Source: Anaerovibrio lipolyticus LB2005 (GTDB taxonomy: Bacteria > Bacillota > Negativicutes > Selenomonadales > Selenomonadaceae). Taken from it: 64,000 nucleotides of DNA. Below the pieces are notes generated by a model, which searched no databases, had not been told where the DNA came from, and saw only the letters and a program-made list of their open reading frames with translations. The translations under genes and the position numbers were made by a program. This document shows, one piece after another, positions 31,037 to 45,928 of this stretch. The stretch lies in the NCBI RefSeq assembly GCF_000621545.1, contig NZ_JHYA01000003.1, forward strand, positions 1 through 64,000, read 5' to 3'. Position 1 is the stretch's first letter. Every line of letters starts with the position of its first letter.

Positions 31037-31151
31037 TTTTTATTTAGAGGAGATATGATAATCGAGTTAATTTTTTATATACTAACAATTTGAAGTGTAG
31101 TATAATTATATAAAATATTTTAACGATAAGTTTATACATAAAATAATACAT

Positions 31152-31314
31152 AAAATCAGGTGTCGTTAGACTTGATAGAGAAGCCGGAAAAAAACCGGCG
31201 CGGTCCCGCCACTGTATTGGGGAGCTAATTTGCAATTATGTCACTGAAGGGGGAAAAGCCTCTTTGGGAAGGCGCAATGCAGCTATGAACCAGAGCCAGG
31301 AGAACTGCCTGATT
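31152..31314 (+). ncRNA. Cobalamin riboswitch 1
   Basis: The B12 box AGCCAGGAGAACTGCC (about 31293-31308) and the upstream conserved CCGCCACTGTA are clear. The outer stem AAATCAGG (31152-31159) pairs with CCTGATTT (31307-31314). An intrinsic terminator follows at 31379, so the switch most likely stops transcription of the btu-like importer when B12 is bound. Confidence 0.95.
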
Positions 31315-31378
31315 TATAATCACCGTTAGACCTACGAGAGATGGGGAGGGGATTTTCGCTTTGACAGGATAATTCTGC

Positions 31379-31416
31379 GCTCTTGATCTACGTGGTCAAG
31401 AGCTTTTATTTTTTTT
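31379..31416 (+). terminator. Riboswitch-controlled terminator of the btu-like operon
   Basis: GCTCTTGA pairs with TCAAGAGC over a 9-base loop and is followed by TTTTATTTTTTTT, ending just before the ribosome site of the permease gene. Confidence 0.9.
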
Positions 31417-31429
31417 ATGGAGGTGCATT

Positions 31430-32431
31430 TTGCGGAAATCTGTTTTTGGTATAGCTGCCATATTGTTGGTTTTATTATGCATCACATTGCTTTTATCCTT
31501 GGGGGCTGGTTCTGTCATGATTCCATCTGATGTGGTTTGGCAGCAGGTGGTGAATGGATTTGAAGGCGAGAATGCCCAAGTGTCACGGATTTTATTTGAT
31601 ATCCGATTGCCACGGAGTTTGTTTGCTGCTATGGCTGGGGCGTCACTAGGATTGACGGGATTATTGATGCAGACCATATCCCAAAATGACTTGGCAGATC
31701 CATATATTTTGGGTGTTTCTTCAGGTGCCGGTGCCGGTGCTGTAATTTGTATAGTGACTGGTTTATCGACAATGCTACTGGGATATGGAGTTTATATTGG
31801 AGCCTTTGTGGGGGCGGCTTTAGCCACGGCTTCGGTGTTGTTGCTTTCTGGAAGAAATGATAATCCGCTACGTTTGGTACTTATGGGTATCGGTGTGTCA
31901 GCTATTTTTTCGGCATTGACCATGTTTGCTATATATGCGGCAAAGGACGAGGCCCAGGTCCGTAGCGCCATGTTTTGGTTGTTAGGTAGTTTGACAGGGA
32001 TTCAATGGAAGGTTGTTCCTGTAATGATGATATCCCTGGCGGTTTTAATGCTTTTTTGCTGGCTTTACCGCCATGAGTTGGATATTATGCTTTTGGGAAG
32101 TGAGGAAGCTCGATCTCTGGGAATGTCGTATCAGCGGTTGCAGCGTATGTCGGTTATTATGGCCTCTGTATCCGCTGCTGTAGTGACATCTATTGCAGGC
32201 GTTATCGGATTTGTTGGTCTCATAGTACCCCACATGGCGCGGCGTATTGGGCGTCCGGACCATGCCTCCATGCTTTGGGTCACTGTTTTGTTGGGAGCAC
32301 TGGTGATGGTAGTGGCAGACGCATTAGCGCGGAGCCTTTTCCGTCCGGAGGAATTACCTATAGGTATTCTCACCTCTTTTTTGGGAGCACCGGTTTTCTT
32401 GTGGATTATATGGAGGCAGTATGCACGATAA
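31430..32431 (+). CDS. btuC: FecCD-family ABC permease, B12-type importer
   Basis: The 333-residue polytopic protein has FecCD hallmarks: RLPRSLFAAMAGASLGLTGLLMQ, DPYILGVSSGAGAGA, GIGVSAIFSALT, and the ATPase-coupling region GVIGFVGLIVPHMARRIGRPDH. It forms the channel of the importer with the two genes downstream. The start is TTG 31430, 6 bases after GGAGG. The cobalamin riboswitch upstream indicates corrinoid uptake. It overlaps the ATPase gene by 11 bases. Confidence 0.93.
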   Translation: MRKSVFGIAAILLVLLCITLLLSLGAGSVMIPSDVVWQQVVNGFEGENAQVSRILFDIRLPRSLFAAMAGASLGLTGLLMQTISQNDLADPYILGVSSGAGAGAVICIVTGLSTMLLGYGVYIGAFVGAALATASVLLLSGRNDNPLRLVLMGIGVSAIFSALTMFAIYAAKDEAQVRSAMFWLLGSLTGIQWKVVPVMMISLAVLMLFCWLYRHELDIMLLGSEEARSLGMSYQRLQRMSVIMASVSAAVVTSIAGVIGFVGLIVPHMARRIGRPDHASMLWVTVLLGALVMVVADALARSLFRPEELPIGILTSFLGAPVFLWIIWRQYAR

Positions 32432-33200
32432 AGATATGTTGCTTGAGACAAGGAATTTGTCCCTTAATATCGGGGGTAAAAATGTATTATGTGAGGTTTC
32501 AGCCCATTTTGCTGAAAACCAGATTACTGCCATTATTGGTCCGAATGGTTCCGGCAAGAGTACCCTGCTGTCCTTTCTCACCAGAAAGCGTGTGGTGGGG
32601 GAGACCGGGGGTACCGCTGGTGAGGTGCTTTTTCGGGGAAATCCCTTGGCAGATATGAGCTCCCAAAGCTTTGCCAGGCTGGCGGCTGTGCTGCCACAAT
32701 TTCACCACACCATTTTGGATTTTTATGTTGAAGATATTGTGCTGATGGGGCGTTTTCCCTTTAAGGAAAAATTTCAGGATTATACAAATGAAGATCGTGA
32801 AAAGGTTCGTATTGCCATGGAAAAGGCGGGGGTATCCCATCTGGCCCTACGCAAGGCAGGGGGCCTTTCAGGTGGGGAGCTGCAGCGTGTCATGATTGCC
32901 AGAACACTGGCTCAGGACACAGATCTGTTGTTTCTTGATGAGCCTACAAATCATCTTGATGTAAAGCATAAGCTGGCCTTGATGCACCTTTTACGGGGGT
33001 GTGACAAGACAGTTGTAGCTGTGCTTCATGATTTATCATTGGTGGCACAGTATACGGATTATGTTGTCGCTATGAAAGACGGTAAAGTCTATGCCAAAGG
33101 CAAAACAGAGGAGGTTTTAAAGCCAGACATTTTGGAAGAAATATTTGAAGTGCCGTTTTTACGTTTTGAGCAGGATGGAAAAATTTATTTGAATTACTGA
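32421..33200 (+). CDS. btuD: ABC ATPase, B12-type importer
   Basis: The 259-residue cytosolic ATPase energises the importer. It has Walker A GPNGSGKST (about residues 40-48), Q-loop LPQFHHT, signature LSGGELQRVMIA, Walker B DLLFLDEPTNHLD and switch His in VLHDLS. The ATG overlaps the permease gene end and the binding-protein gene follows after 14 bases. Confidence 0.93.
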   Translation: MHDKDMLLETRNLSLNIGGKNVLCEVSAHFAENQITAIIGPNGSGKSTLLSFLTRKRVVGETGGTAGEVLFRGNPLADMSSQSFARLAAVLPQFHHTILDFYVEDIVLMGRFPFKEKFQDYTNEDREKVRIAMEKAGVSHLALRKAGGLSGGELQRVMIARTLAQDTDLLFLDEPTNHLDVKHKLALMHLLRGCDKTVVAVLHDLSLVAQYTDYVVAMKDGKVYAKGKTEEVLKPDILEEIFEVPFLRFEQDGKIYLNY

Positions 33201-33214
33201 AGGGAGCGATTGAT

Positions 33215-34210
33215 TTGAAGATGAAGCATTGGCTGAAAAAAGGTGCGGTTGCTGGTATGCTGATGGCTGCATTGTTGAGTGTGGCCGGATGTGGCAATCA
33301 AAAAAATGAACAGGCGGCATCCTCCTCAGGATATCCTGTATCCTGGACAGAAACCTTGAATGGACAGGAGACCAAGGTGTCTGTTGACAAGGCACCGGCC
33401 CGTGTTATTTCCATGTCTCAGGCCACCAGCGAAATGCTGTTGACATTGGGGTTGGAGGACCGCATGGTTGGTACAGCCATGAAGGAGGAAGAAGTATTTG
33501 GTCCTGTAGCAGATGCCTATGGCAAAGTGAAGGTTTTGTCGGAAAAATGGCCTTCCTATGAGACATTTATGGCAGAGAAACCAGATTTTGCAACTGGCTG
33601 GGAGGTTGCTTTTACAAAGCGCGGCATTCCGTCAGATTCCATTACTTCCCAGGGAGTACCAATTTATATCCCTTCCTCCATGCAGAAAACGGATGCAGAT
33701 CTGGAAACAGTTTTTACAGATATGCTGAAATTGGGCGACATTTTTGGCGTTCAGGATAAGGCTAAAGCATGGGTGGATTCCCAGAAGAAGGAATTGGAGC
33801 AGGTTCAGAAGGACTTGGGCAAGCAGCCGAAAAAACGTGTATTTGTATATGACGCTTCTGATGGCAAGCCATTTACAGCCTACAAGGGCTACACTACCAA
33901 TATCCTGAAACTGATTGGCGCAGAAAATATTATGGAAAACGCAGGCGTTGACAAGACCTGGGCCGCAGCCAGCTGGGAATCTGTTGTAGCAGGTGATCCG
34001 GAATACATTATTATCTGCGATTACAGTAGTGGTGTTCGCAATGAGGATGATTTCAAGGAGAAGGTCGCAACAATCCGCAATAATCCACAGCTGAAGGATG
34101 TTAAGGCAGTTAAGGAAAATAAATTTATCAAGGTTCGCCTGTCTGAAATTACACCAGGCGTGCGTACAGTAGATGCATTGAAACGTCTTGCTGCTGAAAT
34201 GAACAAATAA
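33215..34210 (+). CDS. btuF: Corrinoid-type substrate-binding lipoprotein
   Basis: The 331-residue lipoprotein has signal peptide and lipobox SVAGC, then a two-lobed periplasmic-binding fold joined by a long helix (DTLFT...KAKAWVDSQKKELEQV region). It captures the ligand outside the membrane for the BtuCD-like complex. The start is TTG 33215, 8 bases after AGGGAG; ATG 33221 is an alternative. The substrate is inferred from the riboswitch; the sequence alone would also fit a siderophore or haem. Confidence 0.88.
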   Translation: MKMKHWLKKGAVAGMLMAALLSVAGCGNQKNEQAASSSGYPVSWTETLNGQETKVSVDKAPARVISMSQATSEMLLTLGLEDRMVGTAMKEEEVFGPVADAYGKVKVLSEKWPSYETFMAEKPDFATGWEVAFTKRGIPSDSITSQGVPIYIPSSMQKTDADLETVFTDMLKLGDIFGVQDKAKAWVDSQKKELEQVQKDLGKQPKKRVFVYDASDGKPFTAYKGYTTNILKLIGAENIMENAGVDKTWAAASWESVVAGDPEYIIICDYSSGVRNEDDFKEKVATIRNNPQLKDVKAVKENKFIKVRLSEITPGVRTVDALKRLAAEMNK

Positions 34211-37262: not shown

Positions 37263-38720
37263 ATGAAGAAATCTAAAATATTGGCCTGTATGTTGGCCAC
37301 CTCGATAGCTATTGGCAGTTACGGTGCTATTAATTCTGCTTATGCAGCAGATACAGATAATACTCAAGTTATAATGTCTTCAGATCAGGACAGACCGGCT
37401 GGTCCGCCACCTGATGGGAAACCACCTATGGGGCCGCCACCTACTGGCTCTGCACATCATGGGGCACCACCAAATGGTATGCCGGGAGGCTTTGGCGGAC
37501 ATGGGAGCATGTCAGAAGTGAAGTATTCAGCTTCTACGGAGATAAACTCTGCCTCTAGTCAAAACGATAAAGCGTATGCCAGTGATACAGCGGAAAAGAG
37601 TGCTTTAATTATAAGCACTGCAGATAATGTAAATATTACTAATCCTACAATAACAAAAGCCGGTGATTCCGATGGACGGGATAACTGTAATTTTTATGGA
37701 CAGAATGCCACTGTACTGGTAAAGGGCGGCTCTACCACAACCATTATCGGTGGCACCATAACCTCTGATGCTTCTGGCGCCAATGGGGTATTTTCCTATG
37801 GAGGTAACGGCGGACAGAATGGTGCAGAGGGTGACGGTACCAAGGTTATTATCAGGGATACAAAAATCACCACCTCCGGCAGCGGTTCAGGTGGTATTAT
37901 GACCACAGGTGGCGGTATTACTGAGGCCTATAACCTTGATATTACAACAAATGGCCAGTCCTCAGCCCCAATCAGAAGTGATAGAGGCGGCGGAAAGGTT
38001 ATAGTAGATGGTGGTACCTATGTATCCCATGGTTTGGGTTCACCTACTATTTATTCCACTGCGGATATCACCGTGTCCAATGCAACTTTGGAGTCCACTA
38101 TGTCGGAGGGAGTGTGTATTGAGGGGTTAAATTCCATCACTTTGAATAATTGTGATATGACTGCCAACAATAGGGGCTGCAATGCCAATGCAACCTTTAA
38201 TGATATGATCATGATCTATCAGTCATTTTCCGGGGATGCGGACAGCGGCACATCATTCTTTAATGTAAATGGTGGCAGTCTGACCAATAAAAATGGTCAT
38301 GTATTCCATGTGACCAATACCAATGCGGTTATAAATCTTGATGGAGTTAAAATTGTAAATCAGGATGCAAATAATGTCCTTATGTCCGTATGCGATGATG
38401 GATGGAATGGAGGCTCAAATGTTGCAACTGTAAATGCAGCCCATCAGGTGATGGAAGGAAATATTTTGGTAGGTGAAAATTCCAAGCTGATCTTAAATAT
38501 TAAGGATAATTCAACCTTTACTGGCTCTATCTGTGGCAATATTACCAATGTAAAGGGAGAAACTGTTTCCACTAATGTGGGAAATGTGTCAGTTTCCCTT
38601 GATAACACCAGTAAATGGATTTTGATGGATGATACCCATATTTCCAGCTTTACAGGGAATATCAGTCAGATAACCGCTAACGGACATAGCCTTTATGTAG
38701 ATGGAGTCAAAGTTCTTTAA
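37263..38720 (+). CDS. Secreted right-handed beta-helix protein
   Basis: The 485-residue protein has a Sec signal peptide (cleavage near SAYAAD), a Pro/Gly-rich segment with PPPDGKPPMGPPPTG (about 45-80), and a long region of short Gly/Asn/Thr-rich repeats (VLVKGGSTTTIIGGTIT, VIIRDTKITTSGSG, VIVDGGTYVSHG, ITLNNCDMTANN) typical of parallel beta-helix surface proteins. It has no LPXTG or SLH anchor. It may be an adhesin or polysaccharide-binding protein. GGAGG precedes the ATG. No neighbour clarifies its role. Confidence 0.75.
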   Translation: MKKSKILACMLATSIAIGSYGAINSAYAADTDNTQVIMSSDQDRPAGPPPDGKPPMGPPPTGSAHHGAPPNGMPGGFGGHGSMSEVKYSASTEINSASSQNDKAYASDTAEKSALIISTADNVNITNPTITKAGDSDGRDNCNFYGQNATVLVKGGSTTTIIGGTITSDASGANGVFSYGGNGGQNGAEGDGTKVIIRDTKITTSGSGSGGIMTTGGGITEAYNLDITTNGQSSAPIRSDRGGGKVIVDGGTYVSHGLGSPTIYSTADITVSNATLESTMSEGVCIEGLNSITLNNCDMTANNRGCNANATFNDMIMIYQSFSGDADSGTSFFNVNGGSLTNKNGHVFHVTNTNAVINLDGVKIVNQDANNVLMSVCDDGWNGGSNVATVNAAHQVMEGNILVGENSKLILNIKDNSTFTGSICGNITNVKGETVSTNVGNVSVSLDNTSKWILMDDTHISSFTGNISQITANGHSLYVDGVKVL

Positions 38721-40036: not shown

Positions 40037-40912
40037 ATGATATATGATGCAGCAATCGTTGGAAGCGGGCCGGCGGGGTTGTCGGCGGCTACTGTGCTAA
40101 AGGCAAGAGGAAAGAATATAATATGGTTTGGCCCTGAAGAAATGAGCTCCAAAATTGAAAAGGCTGAGAAAATCTCCAATTATCCCGGACTGGGTATTAT
40201 CACCGGGCATGAGCTAAATGAGCATTTTCGTAAGCATATCAAGGAGCTGGATCTTGAGATTACCAATAAATTCGTTTCCAAGATTTCAGATTTTGGCGGT
40301 AAGTTTACCTTGTTGGCAGACAATGAGATGTTCGAGGCAAAGACTGTTCTGCTGACCACCGGAATAGCCGTTGCCAAGGGCTATGATGGGGAAAAGGAGC
40401 ATCTGGGGAGAGGTGTAAGTTACTGCGCCACCTGTGACGGTATGTTTTACAAGGGAAAGACTTTGGCAGTGTATTGTGGTGACAAAAGCTTTATTCCCGA
40501 GGTTTCTTACCTTGCTAATATAGCTGAAAAGGTGTATCTGTTTTCCACTGATGGCAAATTGACAGTGCTGGAGAATAATGTGGAGCTGGTCGACGGCAGA
40601 CTGGTGAAAATACTGGGTGAGCAAAGAGTGGAGGCCATAGAGCTAAGTAATGGGGACAAAATTGCCGTTGATGGTGTATTTATTTTGCGTAACGCCATTC
40701 CACCAGAGGAGCTTCTGCCAGGGCTGGAGCTTAATGGTCCCCATGTGACTGTTGACCGCCAGCTTCACACCAATATAGAAGGCTGCTTTGCTGCTGGGGA
40801 CAACACAGGAAGACCGTACCAGATAGCCAAGGCCATAGGTGAGGGCAATGTGGCTGCCCATGAAATATTGGAGTATCTGGCAATTAGCTGTACATCTCGT
40901 GACAGGTGTTAA
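40037..40912 (+). CDS. Thioredoxin reductase-like flavoprotein lacking NADPH motifs (FFTR-like)
   Basis: The 291-residue protein has the FAD motif GSGPAGLSAA (9-18), the redox pair CATC (C130, C133) and a C-terminal FAD segment CFAAGDNTGRPYQIAKAIGEG. The NADPH-binding glycine motif and the following His-Arg-Arg of classical TrxB are replaced by VYCGDKSFIPEVSY and LFSTDGKL. Enzymes of this type in clostridia take electrons from ferredoxin (FFTR). ATG 40037 follows AGGAGG at 10 bases. It likely reduces the thioredoxin upstream. The 3' end overlaps the converging LysR gene by 29 bases. Confidence 0.85.
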   Translation: MIYDAAIVGSGPAGLSAATVLKARGKNIIWFGPEEMSSKIEKAEKISNYPGLGIITGHELNEHFRKHIKELDLEITNKFVSKISDFGGKFTLLADNEMFEAKTVLLTTGIAVAKGYDGEKEHLGRGVSYCATCDGMFYKGKTLAVYCGDKSFIPEVSYLANIAEKVYLFSTDGKLTVLENNVELVDGRLVKILGEQRVEAIELSNGDKIAVDGVFILRNAIPPEELLPGLELNGPHVTVDRQLHTNIEGCFAAGDNTGRPYQIAKAIGEGNVAAHEILEYLAISCTSRDRC

Positions 40913-41750
40913 TAAAAAGCTCCAAAGTAGATGTAATATATTTATTTACATGATGGACAATACGGAAATTTCGGCGAAAATTAATATGGGGGACGGATAT
41001 TTCAATAAGAGATCCGTCAATTATTTCCTTTTCCACAATTTTTTTGGAAAGAACGGTTATACCAAGACCAGCCATAACTGCTTGCTTGATGGTGGAAGAA
41101 TTGTTATAAACACCGGAGATACGCGGGGTTATATTATGTTCTCTCATAATCTGTTCAAAAAGATTGCGGGTACCGCTGCCCTCCTCCCGTACAATAAAGG
41201 AGCATTTCGCTATTTCTTTCTTGGACATAGTTTGCTTGCTGTCAGGTGAAGCTACGAATACCAGCTCATCTTCCATGAAGGGGATTTCACGCAGGTATTC
41301 TGATTCAAGGGTTCCCTCAACCAGCGCAATATCCAGTTCATCTTGAAGTAGGTATTGCTCCAAAGTGGTGGTATTGTGAATACGGGAAAAAATCACCTGC
41401 TCCGGCAGTTTTGCTTTAAAATGGCACAGCAGGGGAACGAAAACACTTTCGCCAACTGACAAGGTGGCACCAATGCGGAGCGGGGAGTGACTGGAAAAAC
41501 CGCGTAGTGTTGATTCTGCCTTATTAGTCAGACTAAGTACATGGCGGGCATAGTGCATAAGCTCCTGTCCGGCTGGAGTAATAAACAATCTTTTTCCCAG
41601 TCTTTCAAACAATTTAACTTGGTAATGTTCCTCAAGTTCTTTGATGGCCTGGCTCACAGAAGGTTGTGAAATATGTAGCTTTTCAGCAGCTTTGGTCATT
41701 CCTTCCTCATCACAAACATTTAGAAATATAAGAAAATGTCTAAGCGTCAT
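40884..41750 (-). CDS. LysR-family regulator, CysL/YeiE-like
   Basis: The 288-residue protein has the LysR helix-turn-helix (EEGMTKAAEKLHISQPSVSQAIKELEEHYQVKLFERLGK) and a periplasmic-binding-like effector domain (IALVEGTLESEYL, FIVREEGSGTR, VMAGLGITVLSK). The effector-domain pattern resembles CysL/YeiE proteins, which often neighbour YeiH exporters; a YeiH homologue lies at 44910, beyond the second riboswitch operon. ATG 41750 is 8 bases after GGAGG, better than the ATG at 41765. Confidence 0.8.
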   Translation of the reverse strand: MTLRHFLIFLNVCDEEGMTKAAEKLHISQPSVSQAIKELEEHYQVKLFERLGKRLFITPAGQELMHYARHVLSLTNKAESTLRGFSSHSPLRIGATLSVGESVFVPLLCHFKAKLPEQVIFSRIHNTTTLEQYLLQDELDIALVEGTLESEYLREIPFMEDELVFVASPDSKQTMSKKEIAKCSFIVREEGSGTRNLFEQIMREHNITPRISGVYNNSSTIKQAVMAGLGITVLSKKIVEKEIIDGSLIEISVPHINFRRNFRIVHHVNKYITSTLELFINTCHEMYS

Positions 41751-41866
41751 GGAAAAATCCTCCATCTATAGGTATATGCCTATGAAATCATTAAATAATA
41801 GTATTTTACATTTTTTAATTTAGTGATTAGAATTTTGGTTGTCAATCAAAAATACAATTACATATG

Positions 41867-42022
41867 TTTTTGGGTGCTCGCGAGAGCCTAACAGAGAAAA
41901 CGGTGAAAAGCCGTTGCGATCCCGTCACTGTAATGTGGAGTTCCTTTCATGATGTCACTGGCTATTGGTAGCTGGGAAGGCGAATCGAACGATGAAACAG
42001 AGCCAGGAGAACTGCCCAAAAA
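41867..42022 (+). ncRNA. Cobalamin riboswitch 2
   Basis: The B12 box AGCCAGGAGAACTGCC (42001-42016) and GATCCCGTCACTGTAA upstream are clear. TTTTTGGG (41867-41874) pairs with CCCAAAAA (42015-42022) to close the aptamer. A terminator follows at 42086. It controls a second, now damaged, importer operon. The region 41751-42207 contains nothing else recognisable. Confidence 0.94.
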
Positions 42023-42085
42023 TGGATTTTACTTGCATCTTGCGAGCGACAGGAGAGCAGGCGACTACAATGCGTTGTTTTTGTG

Positions 42086-42115
42086 CCGTTTCGTATATTG
42101 CGAAGCGGTTTTTTT
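42086..42115 (+). terminator. Riboswitch-controlled terminator of the second operon
   Basis: CCGTTTCG pairs with CGAAGCGG (one G-T pair) over a 7-base loop and is followed by TTTTTTT. Confidence 0.88.
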
Positions 42116-42207
42116 ATTGCCAAGGTTTTCGGTTTGTGGGGAGATGATGGATAGCAGCCTAAAGTAAAGAATTTTAGATGTATGATTGTTGAAAGGATGG
42201 AACGATT

Positions 42208-43329
42208 ATGAAGCAACGAAGTTTGTTTGTGGTATTATTGGTGCTATGTATGGCTTGCTTTACATTGTTAACGGGTTGTGGAAGTGAGAAAAATAATGCA
42301 GCCAAAGATGATAATGGAAAGATAACTATAGAAGATGTAAAGGGCAATGTTGTCGAGGTCCCAAAGGATATTAAGAAAATTGCCGTGGTACCATTGCCTT
42401 GGGCTTCAGTGGTTACCGCACTGGATGGCAATTCTGAGCGTATTGTTGCAATTCATCCGGGTGCTATGTCTGCGTATAAAGGCCATTTTTTGGCAACCAA
42501 GGATAGCCATTTTGGAACCCTGAATACTGAGCTTATCGGTCAGGATTTTTCCGTAAATGTTGAAGGAATGCTGCAACAGGGGGGTGAAGCTGCAATTATT
42601 TGGCAGCATCAGGAGGACGATGCCGCCAAGTTGAAGCAGGTTGGCATTGTTCCTATTATGATTAACAATACTACTGTTGAGGAGTTGCAGAAAAGCTTCC
42701 TTATTGTGGGCAAGCTGCTGGGCAAGGAGGATCGTGCTAAAAAGATAAATGACTACTATCAGAAGACTTATGACCAGATAAAGAGTAAGTCCAATGATGT
42801 GGCTAAGGCAGACAAGCCAAAGATTCTCTTCCTGCGTACCCAGAAGCTGCGTCTTCAGGGCAATGATAATTTCATGCGTGAAGCTATTGAGATTGCCGGC
42901 GGAGATAACCCTACGGAAAAAACTGATTTGAAGAGCAATCAGAACCAGAATCAGACCATTACTATGGAAGAGGTATTGAAGATTGATCCGGATATTATTT
43001 TGCTCAGCAACTTTGACAAATTTGTTCCGGATGATCTGTATGAGAACCGTATACCTGGACAGGACTGGAGTACTGTTAAGGCTGTTAGGGAACATAGGGT
43101 TTATAAGGTACCTCTCGGTATTTATCGTTGGGATGCCCCAGGCGTAGAAACTCCTTTGATGATGCGTTGGCTGGCCCATCTTTTACAGCCGGGGATTTTC
43201 AAGGATATCAATATTCGTCAGGATACAAGAGATTTCATGAAAGATTTTATGAATTATGATTTAAGTGATGAGGATTTGGCGGTTATATTTGCGGATGAGG
43301 CAAATAAAAACAGCGTAAAGGTGCAGTAA
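42208..43329 (+). CDS. ABC substrate-binding lipoprotein, second B12-riboswitch operon
   Basis: The 373-residue protein has a signal peptide with lipobox LLTGC, then DDNGKITIEDVKGNVVEVP and a two-lobed binding fold with RTQKLRLQGNDNFMREAIEIAGG, the usual layout of iron/corrinoid binding proteins of the FecB/BtuF class. AAGGATGG precedes the ATG. The stop codon overlaps the permease start by one base. Expression should fall when cobalamin is present, so a corrinoid, cobalt complex or cofactor precursor is the plausible ligand. Its permease partner is truncated, so it may no longer support uptake. Confidence 0.85.
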   Translation: MKQRSLFVVLLVLCMACFTLLTGCGSEKNNAAKDDNGKITIEDVKGNVVEVPKDIKKIAVVPLPWASVVTALDGNSERIVAIHPGAMSAYKGHFLATKDSHFGTLNTELIGQDFSVNVEGMLQQGGEAAIIWQHQEDDAAKLKQVGIVPIMINNTTVEELQKSFLIVGKLLGKEDRAKKINDYYQKTYDQIKSKSNDVAKADKPKILFLRTQKLRLQGNDNFMREAIEIAGGDNPTEKTDLKSNQNQNQTITMEEVLKIDPDIILLSNFDKFVPDDLYENRIPGQDWSTVKAVREHRVYKVPLGIYRWDAPGVETPLMMRWLAHLLQPGIFKDINIRQDTRDFMKDFMNYDLSDEDLAVIFADEANKNSVKVQ

Positions 43330-44135
43330 TGAAGGTGCTGAAGCAATTTACAGCAGGGGGATATGCAGCTATAATGCTGCTATTCCTTTTTCTGCTGGCT
43401 GCCATGACGGTTTTTAGCATAGGTTCGGGGCGGTTTGATATTGGTCCGGGCGATGTAGTAAAGATATTGTGTCACTCACTTTTGGGGATTGAGAGAACTT
43501 GGAGCGAGCAGGCAGAGAATGTAATTTTTTCTCTTCGCCTGCCCCGGGTTTTGGCTGCTGTTATGATTGGTGCTGCGCTGTCTCTTTCCGGCGCAGCCTA
43601 TCAGAGTGTGTTCAAAAATCCTTTGGTGGCCCCGGATATGCTTGGGGTGTCATCAGGAGCCTGTGTGGGTGCATCTGTATGCATATTGCTTGGTTTGTCC
43701 CAACTTGGAATTCAGGTTGGGGCTTTTTGTGGTGGTTTACTGGCTGTATCTGTGGCGGTAATGATTCCCCGTATAGTTGGTAGAAATACAGTAGTCATGC
43801 TGGTTCTAGCCGGCATTATAGTAGGGGGCTTTATGAGCTCATTACTGGGCATCATAAAGTATGTTGCTGATACAGAGACGGAATTACCACTTATTACATA
43901 TTGGCAGCTTGGTTCCCTGACAAGCGTTATGTGGGGAAATCTATTGTATAATGGTCTGCCGATAATTGCCTGTGCAATGATAATGCTTTTTTTGCGCTGG
44001 CGCATGAATATCTTGATGTTGAGTGACGAAGAGGCTCATATGCTGGGACATAATGCTGTCCGAATTCGTTACGCAGTTATATTCTGTGCAACTGTACTTA
44101 CGGTCAGTTCGGTATGTATGGAATCGAGCATATAG
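43329..44135 (+). pseudogene. FecCD-type permease, C-terminally truncated by deletion
   Basis: The first 260 residues are a normal FecCD permease (LRLPRVLAAVMIGAALSLSGAAYQ, VAPDMLGVSSGACVGASV, LAGIIVGGFMSSLLG). The frame ends abruptly at VLTVSSVCMESSI, where homologues continue into the GxIGFVGLxxPHxxR coupling segment that the first operon's permease keeps. About 65-75 residues are missing, including the ATPase contact. The break coincides with the start of a foreign frame at about 44114, so a deletion removed the permease end and probably the ATPase gene. Confidence 0.82.
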
Positions 44136-44824
44136 AATGGGATGGATACGGAGCCATGTTCCCGAAAGACAACCTCTTAAACAGTTGGGGCAATTTAAAC
44201 AGTGTAAAAATGAATTGGGTGGTTTCTGCCCAGGGAGTCTTTTTGGCACAAAAAATTCAGGAAACGCAAGGAATTCCTTATATTGCCGCTATTCCTGTAG
44301 GCGCCCGTTCCATGAAATTGTGGCTGAATAAGATCAATGGATATATGAACAGCAATAAAGCATTGGCGGAAGTGCCGGAAAAGACTTCTCTTCGCCGTGA
44401 AGAGAAGGTGCTGCTTTTAGGAGATCCGGTGCTCACTCTTGGAATATATCGTTTCCTACGGGAAATGCTGGGTTTTCACCAGATTGAACTTGCTTTATAT
44501 GCGCCTTTCCACTCATTACGGGAATGGTACAACCAGGCTGTGCCGTTGATTATGGCCAATGGACTTGGAGATTGTCAGAGGCCGGAGATACATTTATTTT
44601 CTGACCGTGAACAGTGGCTGGAATTAGCATCGGGGTGTGACATCATTATCGGTGACAGCACATTTAATATTTCCGGAGCACTGTCAGATAAAATTTGGAT
44701 AAATATTACTGATCCTTCGCTGTATGCCGGTGAAAAGGAAATGAATGACAAATATTTGTTTTTCGGCAAGAAGGGTGCTGCCTGGCTGGAAACAAAATAC
44801 ATAGGCAAAAACCTATATAAATAA
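44114..44824 (+). pseudogene. Nitrogenase component 1-like protein, N-terminal part deleted
   Basis: The fragment of up to 236 residues resembles the C-terminal half of NifD/NifK-like oxidoreductases: MNWVVSAQGVFLAQKIQE, GIPYIAAIPVGARSM, then EEKVLLLGDPVLTLGIYRFLREMLG and CDIIIGDSTFNISGAL. Full-length homologues have about 200 more N-terminal residues with cluster ligands. No ribosome site precedes the ATG at 44114, and the frame is offset from the truncated permease, so this is a deletion remnant. Nothing here points to nitrogen fixation; a cofactor-related or reductase role linked to B12 is conceivable. Confidence 0.75.
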
Positions 44825-44909
44825 TAAGACAATAGTATTTTCCATATAATGCCCTTAATGATAATATATTTCTTGTCAATTAAGAATTTATTCTGTGGAG
44901 GATAGTTGC

Positions 44910-45893
44910 ATGAAACAAGAACACATTAAGGGTATTTTATTTGCGTTGATTTTCGCTATACCAGCTTGGTTTTTGGGGCAGGTGTTTCCCATAGTGGGGG
45001 GACCGGTGTTTGGAATACTATTGGGAATGATGTTTGCATCATTAAGGCGGCCTAAATCGATGGAAGTGGGCATAGCCTTTACCGGGAAGAAAATCCTTCA
45101 ATATTCCATAATACTTCTTGGCTTTGAAATGAATCTTTTTCATGTACTTAATGTGGGCTCCAGGTCTTTATCTGTTATGATTTTTACACTGCTTACCGCC
45201 TTTGTTGTGGCTTGGGGGGCAGGAAAAATGCTGAAGCTGGAGAAAAATACCACTACCCTTATTGGTGCCGGTACAGCTATTTGCGGGGGATCAGCTATTG
45301 CAGCGGTGGCCCCGGTCATTGGTGCCAAGGATAAGGATATTGCTTTTTCTATTTCTACAATTTTTCTTTTCAATGTTTTGGCAGTATTCATTTTTCCATT
45401 TTTGGGTCATGTTATGAATATGTCGGATTTTGGTTTTGGAATGTGGGCCGGAACGGCAGTTAATGATACTTCTTCTGTGGTGGCGGCTGGGTATTCCTAT
45501 AGTGAAGAGGCGGGGGCATTTGCCACTATCGTTAAACTCACAAGAGCATTAATGATAGTACCGGTGTGCCTCATTTTTGCGTGGCTCACTGCCCGTGAAA
45601 GAAACAGTCAGGGACAAGGATTTAAATTGGCTAAAATTTTTCCTTTTTTCATTATGTGGTTTGTGGTTGCTTCCATAGTGAATACCACCGGCATATTGCC
45701 CGAAGTTCTCTCCCACGCCTTGGGGACTGTGGGAAAATTCTGTATTGTGCTGGCTATGTGTGCCATAGGCCTCAATACAAAAATAATGGAACTTTTGCGT
45801 AACGGCGTGCGTCCAATTTTCCTAGGATTTTGCTGCTGGGTGGCTGTGGCCTGTATGTCTCTTGCCGTCCAATATGTGGTGGGGATCTTGTAA
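44910..45893 (+). CDS. yeiH: YeiH-family membrane transporter (putative sulfate exporter)
   Basis: The 327-residue protein has about nine or ten hydrophobic helices and YeiH family motifs: QVFPIVGGPVFGILLGM, GAGTAICGGSAIAAVAPVI, and GMWAGTAVNDTSSVVAAGYS. The family is annotated as putative sulfate exporter; substrates are not firmly established. ATG 44910 is 8 bases after GGAGG. YeiH is often encoded near a CysL/YeiE-type LysR regulator, which is found here at 40884, separated by the damaged riboswitch operon. Confidence 0.87.
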   Translation: MKQEHIKGILFALIFAIPAWFLGQVFPIVGGPVFGILLGMMFASLRRPKSMEVGIAFTGKKILQYSIILLGFEMNLFHVLNVGSRSLSVMIFTLLTAFVVAWGAGKMLKLEKNTTTLIGAGTAICGGSAIAAVAPVIGAKDKDIAFSISTIFLFNVLAVFIFPFLGHVMNMSDFGFGMWAGTAVNDTSSVVAAGYSYSEEAGAFATIVKLTRALMIVPVCLIFAWLTARERNSQGQGFKLAKIFPFFIMWFVVASIVNTTGILPEVLSHALGTVGKFCIVLAMCAIGLNTKIMELLRNGVRPIFLGFCCWVAVACMSLAVQYVVGIL

Positions 45894-45928
45894 TCCGTTT
45901 GTTGATTTTAAAAAGTTAGACAAATAAA

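Follow-up and report, generated by a model that had tools for sequence, protein, structure and literature searches.

A stretch of 64,000 nucleotides from the rumen-type bacterium Anaerovibrio lipolyticus LB2005 (RefSeq assembly GCF_000621545.1, contig NZ_JHYA01000003.1, positions 1 to 64,000 of the forward strand), referred to here as the window, carries the remains of an operon in which a cobalamin riboswitch precedes genes for an importer and for a nitrogenase-like protein (Table 1). The riboswitch aptamer lies above the RF00174 gathering score of 31.5 bits and is thus a member of that family. An intact binding protein follows, and behind it a FecCD permease breaks off and runs directly into the C-terminal part of a protein resembling nitrogenase component 1, the two open reading frames lying in different frames and overlapping by 22 bases. 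This abutment of a truncated permease and a frame-shifted fragment had been proposed in the original prediction, and it is confirmed by Pfam matches, by the coordinates and by a gap of 2,073 bp relative to two related genomes. On its own, the nitrogenase-like fragment covers positions 179-350 of the 399 in the PF00148 profile and, at 23.0 bits, stays below the cut-off of 28.6; across residues 338-565 it is 96% identical to the protein of Anaerovibrio sp. RM50.

Table 1. Features of the operon remnant and of its surroundings, in window coordinates
Feature	Coordinates	Strand	Evidence and remarks
Cobalamin riboswitch aptamer (RF00174)	41855..42033	+	109.1 bits, E 2e-26, full model 1-189
Peripla_BP_2 periplasmic binding lipoprotein, intact, 373 aa	42208..43329	+	PF01497 E 6e-19
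FecCD permease, truncated, 268 aa, out of frame past junction	43329..44135	+	Pfam FecCD, profile 1-237 of 311, E 3e-52
Single-chain nitrogenase component-1-like protein, C-terminal fragment from about residue 337/571	44114..44824	+	PF00148 (Oxidored_nitro) E 4e-5
Deletion junction, two-base microhomology	44118..44119	.	2,073 bp of G014 and G006 missing
Promoter-like site TTTACA-17-TAGAAT 5' of the riboswitch	41805..41833	+	consensus scan only
Terminator-like hairpin with T run, between aptamer and first gene	42085..42109	+	11-pair stem + T tail
LysR-type regulator, flanks operon	40884..41765	-	judged outside operon
YeiH-like transporter, flanks operon	44895..45893	+	PF03601 E 6e-81; judged outside operon; kept in G008
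Second cobalamin riboswitch (31141-31326) with intact FecCD permease, ATPase and binding protein; separate importer	31141..34210	+	

The same jump appears when the window genome (G000) is aligned with Anaerovibrio sp. RM50 (G014) and with an uncultured Anaerovibrio known from a metagenome-assembled genome (MAG; G006): the left flank ends at window position 44119, the right flank starts at 44118, with a difference of 2,073 bases between the two offsets. In RM50 the permease (343 amino acids, aa), the ATPase (264 aa) and the nitrogenase-like protein (571 aa) are intact; lost from the window are the last ~80 residues of the permease, the whole ATPase and ~335 N-terminal residues of the nitrogenase-like protein. 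That the permease stops before its ATPase-coupling segment holds as regards the truncation, but loss of the segment itself is doubtful, the stretch LSDEEAHMLG, which we take to be the EAA-like cytoplasmic loop, being still present in the truncated protein. Judging from these alignments, importer and enzyme function were removed in the window by the 2,073-bp deletion, and the locus is a dead remnant; another importer of that kind is kept by the cell, since a second FecCD importer is intact in the window. It is scarcely credible that the junction is instead an assembly error and the operon intact in the cell. The remnant is still about 99% identical to RM50, as such an error would have it, but only two bases are common at the join, which speaks against a collapsed repeat, and an independent, larger deletion in a fourth Anaerovibrio genome (G008), together with a stop codon in G006, shows that the operon decays in this genus. 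RM50 still has the proposed ancestral operon complete (binding protein, permease, ATPase and nitrogenase-like protein behind a cobalamin riboswitch), and it occurs with an added NifH-like gene in Clostridia, where five loci keep riboswitch, FecCD transporter and nitrogenase-like protein together. The expectation of one or more nitrogenase-like proteins was right as to their presence, but there is a single gene, fused from parts of two subunits.

Within Anaerovibrio the operon is evidently decaying in steps, three of the four copies or traces being broken. The nitrogenase-like gene of G006 carries a TAG stop at codon 392. G008 retains the LysR gene and the riboswitch, but of the operon genes behind them only about 20 codons are left, from the end of the nitrogenase-like gene. 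When the DNA of binding protein and permease was compared with 16 Anaerovibrio genomes, five gave some match, a long one only in G000, G014 and G006. The window and RM50 share about 99% identity at about 41000-45900, with 84-94% in flanking 250-base steps (97% in one 112-base stretch), and this block suggests a recent exchange within the genus. Between G000 and G014 the silent/changing substitutions number 6/1 in the binding protein, 1/6 in the permease, 3/5 in the fragment and 2/6 in the YeiH-like gene, and between G006 and G014 they number 1/8 in the nitrogenase-like gene, 1/3 in the permease and 2/2 in the ATPase; relaxed selection does not emerge from them, the substitutions between Anaerovibrio copies being too few to show any. 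The window locus offers a clear case of an operon dying stepwise in a single genus, where its iron protein seems to be missing.

The riboswitch has outlasted the genes it preceded. Orthologous copies score 108.8 bits in G014 and 108.8 bits in G006, where the element sits on a separate contig end, and that of G008 agrees with the window in 174 of 179 bases, counted from the alignment. In G008 it stands, apparently complete and without the operon, upstream of a YeiH-like gene (L230:7205-8501), and this orphan switch may have captured a new gene. In the stretch 41700-45000, promoter-like sites occur about as often as expected (10 observed against 8.5), the support for the promoter candidate being its position, and terminator-like sites number 7 against 3.1 expected. 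The folded leader shows the hairpin at 42085-42109 too, its total folding energy being unexceptional (z -0.3), and this hairpin is probably the expression platform of an OFF switch.

Relatives of the nitrogenase-like protein were gathered by several searches. The fragment, run against 100 genomes (its own and related ones), gave 11 matches at E <=0.001, the near-identical G014 and G006 among them. The 571-aa protein matched in 47 of 380 genomes of the window's class, often partially, as expected for ordinary D or K subunits; 11 neighbourhoods in the class had been taken before that search and 15 were taken after it. A scan of named genomes confirmed 10 of 30 candidate stretches (two Anaerovibrio, two Lachnospiraceae, five oral Selenomonas and one Veillonellaceae MAG). 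In 397 Lachnospiraceae-family genomes there were 86 matches at 0.001, of which four, the query's own included, were strong and began in the N-terminal domain, and 20 neighbourhoods were taken, including three new strong ones; the N-terminal domain matched in 36 of 391 Clostridia genomes, strongly in three (again with the query's own), two strong neighbourhoods and one weaker being taken. No single-chain homologue was found on plasmids at 1e-5. The resulting 22 loci of the single-chain type comprise three from Anaerovibrio, eight from Selenomonas-type genomes, those of G149, G130, G132 and G332, and seven from Clostridia. Simple ORF calling picks opposite-strand frames in the GC-rich Selenomonas loci, and gene adjacency was therefore recounted by tblastn.

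The 17 full-length single-chain proteins were compared with the subunits of G092, a relative with separate NifH, D and K genes (H-D-K). In all of them the N-terminal part aligns only within residues 23-205 of the D subunit (416 aa), mostly 50-170, and what follows aligns to the K subunit (399 aa), starting at its residue 4-8 and ending at 354-399. By these matches the protein combines the D-subunit cluster domain with a complete K subunit in one chain, the rest of D having been lost. Full-length proteins exceed the PF00148 gathering score (36.3 bits in G014, 52.6 in G023, 78.0 in G380). Three cysteines are invariant in 11/11 aligned single-chain proteins (46, 104 and 198 of P0007), two of them in the D part, aligned to NifE cysteines, and one in the K part. 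In fold, a predicted model (pLDDT 74.5, pTM 0.79) comes closest to subunit B of dark-operative protochlorophyllide reductase (DPOR; Foldseek E 6e-13, Z 29.1 to 2ynm_D, rmsd 3.7 over 372), followed by NifEN (Z 26.0) and methylthio-alkane reductase (Mar; Z 25.8); absence of a family from the structure-match table was not taken as exclusion. The K-part tree, made by a quick method, unrooted and with 37 selected rows of which 12 have odd composition, separates the 17 single-chain proteins by a branch with SH-aLRT 97 from the K subunits of G092, G168 and G085, which form a group of their own. Open frames of ~794-866 aa seemingly with whole D and K occur in another branch (L137, 854 aa, and L147, 812 aa, each match both), which means that fusion alone is not special; what is special is the loss of most of D. 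The single-chain protein is split into two genes within the K part in G130 and G132 (L063, L064), where the halves of G130 score none listed and 25.4 against PF00148, below its cut-off, and it ends after 317 aa in G514 (L136). In these three genomes a piece of 277-317 aa with the cluster domain adjoins NifH, and this piece is perhaps the smallest working unit.

All three importer genes are present in 20 of the 22 loci; the exceptions are the window, with a binding protein and part of a permease, and G332, with none on a 14.6-kb stretch. A TonB-dependent receptor accompanies nine loci (7/8 Selenomonas-type, G130 and G132). All seven Clostridia loci have the three importer genes, and a cobalamin riboswitch lies directly upstream in five of them (G620 59.7, G560 72.0, G514 78.2, G1151 68.3 and G1065 65.1 bits), for which the chance is ~2e-14 at a generous rate in an estimate that treats the loci as independent; it is likewise upstream in the three Anaerovibrio loci, which are near-identical copies. 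Gene order is riboswitch, NifH, fusion, binding protein, permease, ATPase in G620, G1151 and G1065, and riboswitch, binding protein, permease, ATPase, NifH, fusion in G560 and G514, the latter order recurring without the riboswitch in G380. The H-D-K relatives G092 and G168, 97-99% identical and counted as one case, have this importer in a row behind riboswitch, outer-membrane protein, NifH, D and K, while G085 (H-D-K, on an 8.1-kb contig) has neither riboswitch nor importer of this kind. Ten Clostridia loci of the other H-D-K branch, a related two-subunit one (L137-L142, L148, L150, L152, L187), are without a cobalamin riboswitch, though six of them hold all three importer genes. Nor was one found where Negativicutes carry other nitrogenase-like genes (six loci: L016, L018, L021, L074, L075, L076); the RNA scan left out eight further loci of the Lachnospiraceae-family search as well as L019, L022 and L023. 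The relatives form a distinct variant of single-chain nitrogenase-like reductase that is in part B12-controlled.

The NifH-like partner expected of such a reductase is encoded in eight of the 22 loci (six of the seven Clostridia, G130 and G132) and elsewhere in the genome in nine more, namely eight Selenomonas-type genomes and G149 with one NifH-type protein each; none was found in G332, a 75% complete genome. Its P-loop and both cluster cysteines are invariant in 10/10 aligned proteins, which belong to the iron-protein family PF00142. All three that were scanned score best against CfbC (325.8, 282.5 and 283.3 bits), below the cut-off of 402.

On a plausible reading, if one still short of probable, the operon that left its remnant in the window coupled an importer repressed by cobalamin to a reductase, driven by ATP, of a tetrapyrrole, probably a corrinoid. 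It is possible, though more doubtful, that a nitrogenase-family enzyme of new build—a D cluster domain and a whole K in one chain—reduces an imported corrinoid together with the NifH-like protein under the cobalamin riboswitch, as a corrinoid-reducing branch of the superfamily. At low B12, RNA polymerase would pass the leader terminator, and the importer would, as its family suggests, take up a corrinoid or close tetrapyrrole. A NifH-like dimer would then dock, hydrolyse ATP and pass low-potential electrons to the fused D'-K chain, by analogy with DPOR and CfbCD, and the electrons would travel through a [4Fe-4S] cluster held by the three cysteines of that chain to the bound tetrapyrrole, as in the same two systems. 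The step itself would likely be reduction of the corrinoid from Co(II) to Co(I), or removal of its upper ligand, yielding a usable cofactor. Both ATP-driven reduction of a protein-bound corrinoid by activating enzymes and an ATP-driven F430 reduction by a complex with nitrogenase-cofactor-like clusters are known (PMC6739815 and PMC12176620, respectively).

The riboswitch and the DPOR- and CfbC-like redox parts speak for a corrinoid, as does a protein (P0006) encoded in the operon of G380 (L080:7212-7910), the C-terminal ~120 residues of which form a CFeSP-type corrinoid domain (PDB 9fzy_F, E 3e-18; PF03599 43.9 against a gathering score of 24.8), the whole staying below the CFeSP large-subunit equivalog (92.2 against 306). 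It contains a WCSGK motif, which presumably resembles that of HgcA. Relatives of P0006 occur in 27 of 391 Clostridia genomes, and those with stronger matches lie in frames of 441-475 aa, the length to be expected of CFeSP. In G642 and G957, separate frames of ~210 aa close to CFeSP-like genes resemble the N-terminal part of P0006. The original prediction's suggestion of a tetrapyrrole, corrinoid or metal cofactor as substrate is a guess that fits this domain and the DPOR-like fold.

Several findings weigh against the corrinoid-reductase reading. The corrinoid-domain protein is present in only one of the 22 loci, and the three Anaerovibrio copies, being near-identical, represent a single lineage. 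Beyond the three invariant cysteines, no conserved fourth cluster ligand was found in the alignments. No NifH-type protein was found in G000, G006 and G014, the Anaerovibrio genomes covered by that search (G008 was left out), their best PF00142 matches being weak (E 3e-12, 1e-10 and 4e-15); at E 0.001 all 14 control genomes match too, and the NifH-type proteins of other genomes reach 1e-75 or better. Without NifH the reductase could hardly work in these three genomes even where intact. Where NifH is missing, the nitrogenase-like protein might be a carrier or store for the imported cofactor with no redox chemistry, as the 571-aa frame kept open in G014 would allow. This is very unlikely, however, given the stop in G006 and the deletions in G000 and G008, all in the same genus, and given the NifH genes adjacent to eight loci or elsewhere in nine further genomes.

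The riboswitch is also unevenly spread, being absent over the operon in all 12 Negativicutes loci outside Anaerovibrio and in G380 and G381 among the Clostridia; L062, L064, L079 and L080 have none even at a lax threshold, and in G173 (Selenomonas) one lies near but faces away from the operon. Such a distribution would suit the import of heme or another porphyrin that is then reduced or dismantled, B12 control being secondary and confined to some lineages, as would the IsdE-like scores of the binding protein, all of them below cut-off, and the ChaN-like heme-binding gene that adjoins the H-D-K set of G085. The presence of cobalamin riboswitches in five of seven Clostridia loci, in Anaerovibrio and over the H-D-K operon of G092/G168, together with the corrinoid-binding domain, nevertheless makes this explanation distinctly unlikely.

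The importer itself leans elsewhere. The predicted fold of the window binding protein is closest to 4ovk (TM 0.82/0.93), a Veillonella protein of unstated ligand, and ranks proteins for molybdate, iron and nickel chelates (HI1472, YiuA, CeuE) above heme binders, with BtuF not in the first 50 fold matches; profile matches run CeuE 3e-25, IsdE 5e-18 and BtuF 6e-15, and the BtuF equivalog score is 21.3 against 234. The permease of G014 likewise falls below both BtuC equivalog cut-offs (194.7 against 461 and 180.5 against 334). In one Selenomonas locus (G023), the outer-membrane receptor has its closest matches in BauA and FemA, both receptors for ferric siderophores, and BtuB is not listed for it at 1e-5. 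Such chelate-type folds, including H. pylori CeuE with Ni-His, the BauA/FemA-like receptor and the cobalamin riboswitches would all agree with a cobalt or nickel metallophore importer that supplies a metal chelate for B12 synthesis, the nitrogenase-like pair releasing or inserting the metal reductively and the riboswitch responding to B12 as end product. We consider this unlikely in view of the corrinoid-binding domain in G380 and the DPOR/CfbC-like redox parts, for which we know of precedents on tetrapyrroles and not on open chelates; moreover, chelated Co(III) or Fe(III) would need no ATP-driven donor. Neither sequence nor fold settles the ligand of the binding protein, and a corrinoid is the best guess for the reduced substrate.

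Regulators and neighbours outside these arguments include the LysR gene of the window, which was considered as a conserved operon partner, many relatives having a LysR gene at this place too, and rejected: it is only 21-35% identical to the LysR proteins of relatives, over 69-295 residues, and G008, having lost the operon, still has it beside the YeiH-like gene, for which reason it is judged no part of the operon. A LysR gene is common to six of the seven Clostridia loci (L079, L134, L135, L136, L184, L185; 42-71% pairwise identity), where it may be a second regulator that brings a second signal to the operon. The genome of G092 (that of L017) has 31 cobalamin riboswitch matches in 5 Mb, many at about 696-786 kb. 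In L018, L137, L138, L145, L146, L147 and others, from Negativicutes and Lachnospiraceae, NifH-D-K sets, often two, cluster with HypD, HypE, HypF, HydF and radical SAM hydrogenase-maturation proteins, as identified by Pfam for some genes of L018, L138 and L142 and by eye for the rest; NifHEN with hydrogenase maturation genes is described for Coprococcus catus by Dos Santos et al. 2012 (PMC3464626). Elsewhere in the window, positions 37263-38720 encode a probably secreted 485-aa protein with a Pro/Gly-rich start and, by eye, repeat-like sequence.

Many nitrogenase-like proteins have no known job, and here the cobalamin riboswitch names the pathway of one branch, making its substrate testable by binding and reduction assays. 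Should it prove to be a corrinoid, B12 use would join the making of ammonia, chlorophyll and F430 among the tasks of the family, and the smaller two-into-one scaffold would tell which parts of component 1 electron transfer needs. Literature searched by title and abstract, most subscription papers lying outside its coverage, held no cobalamin riboswitch joined with a nitrogenase-like operon; the word nitrogenase is absent from the main text of PMC4285132, and the available parts of PMC7160235, PMC9012536, PMC10418091 and PMC11257099 do not treat this operon.

Among known systems, DPOR (BchL, BchN-BchB) is alike in the fold of the K part (Z 29.1), in profile matches to BchB (E 3e-6) and BchN (E 0.005) and in its ATP-driven iron-protein partner. 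It differs in having two subunits where there is one chain here, the D part of which matches a D subunit over ~100-165 residues only, and the B12 riboswitch and importer set the present operons apart. The DPOR cluster is held by three cysteines of N and one aspartate of B, whereas the single-chain proteins hold two D-part cysteines and one K-part cysteine, with no third on the D side; the K-part cysteine presumably occupies the position of the BchB aspartate. For the DPOR equivalog, no family is listed for P0001 (1e-3) or P0007 (1e-10), and the K subunit of G092 reaches 54.7 against 490.35; for nifD the same subunit reaches 34.1 against 653.55, with none listed for P0001. CfbCD of coenzyme F430 biosynthesis is approached by the NifH-like partners, which score best against CfbC, but they lie below its cut-off, are importer-linked and come from Clostridia and Negativicutes. 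The vitamin B12 importer BtuFCD shares the FecCD/BtuC permease family and the cobalamin riboswitch, although permease and binding protein here fall below the BtuC and BtuF cut-offs. RACo-type activating enzymes with CFeSP perform the chemistry proposed here, ATP-driven corrinoid reduction, and P0006 carries the CFeSP corrinoid domain, although its match to the CFeSP large subunit is confined to the last ~120 residues of the latter. To our knowledge, the corrinoid activating enzymes are not nitrogenase-like. Also similar are the NifHEN proteins of Dos Santos et al. 2012 (PMC3464626), in which the 2+1 cysteine pattern is reported for the nitrogenase-like Dhaf_1539/1540 and Mlab_1040/1039 and some members adjoin ABC transporters; the part of that paper available mentions a nifH-nifE fusion but neither a riboswitch nor a D-K fusion, whereas here D' and K form one chain and the operon is B12-controlled.

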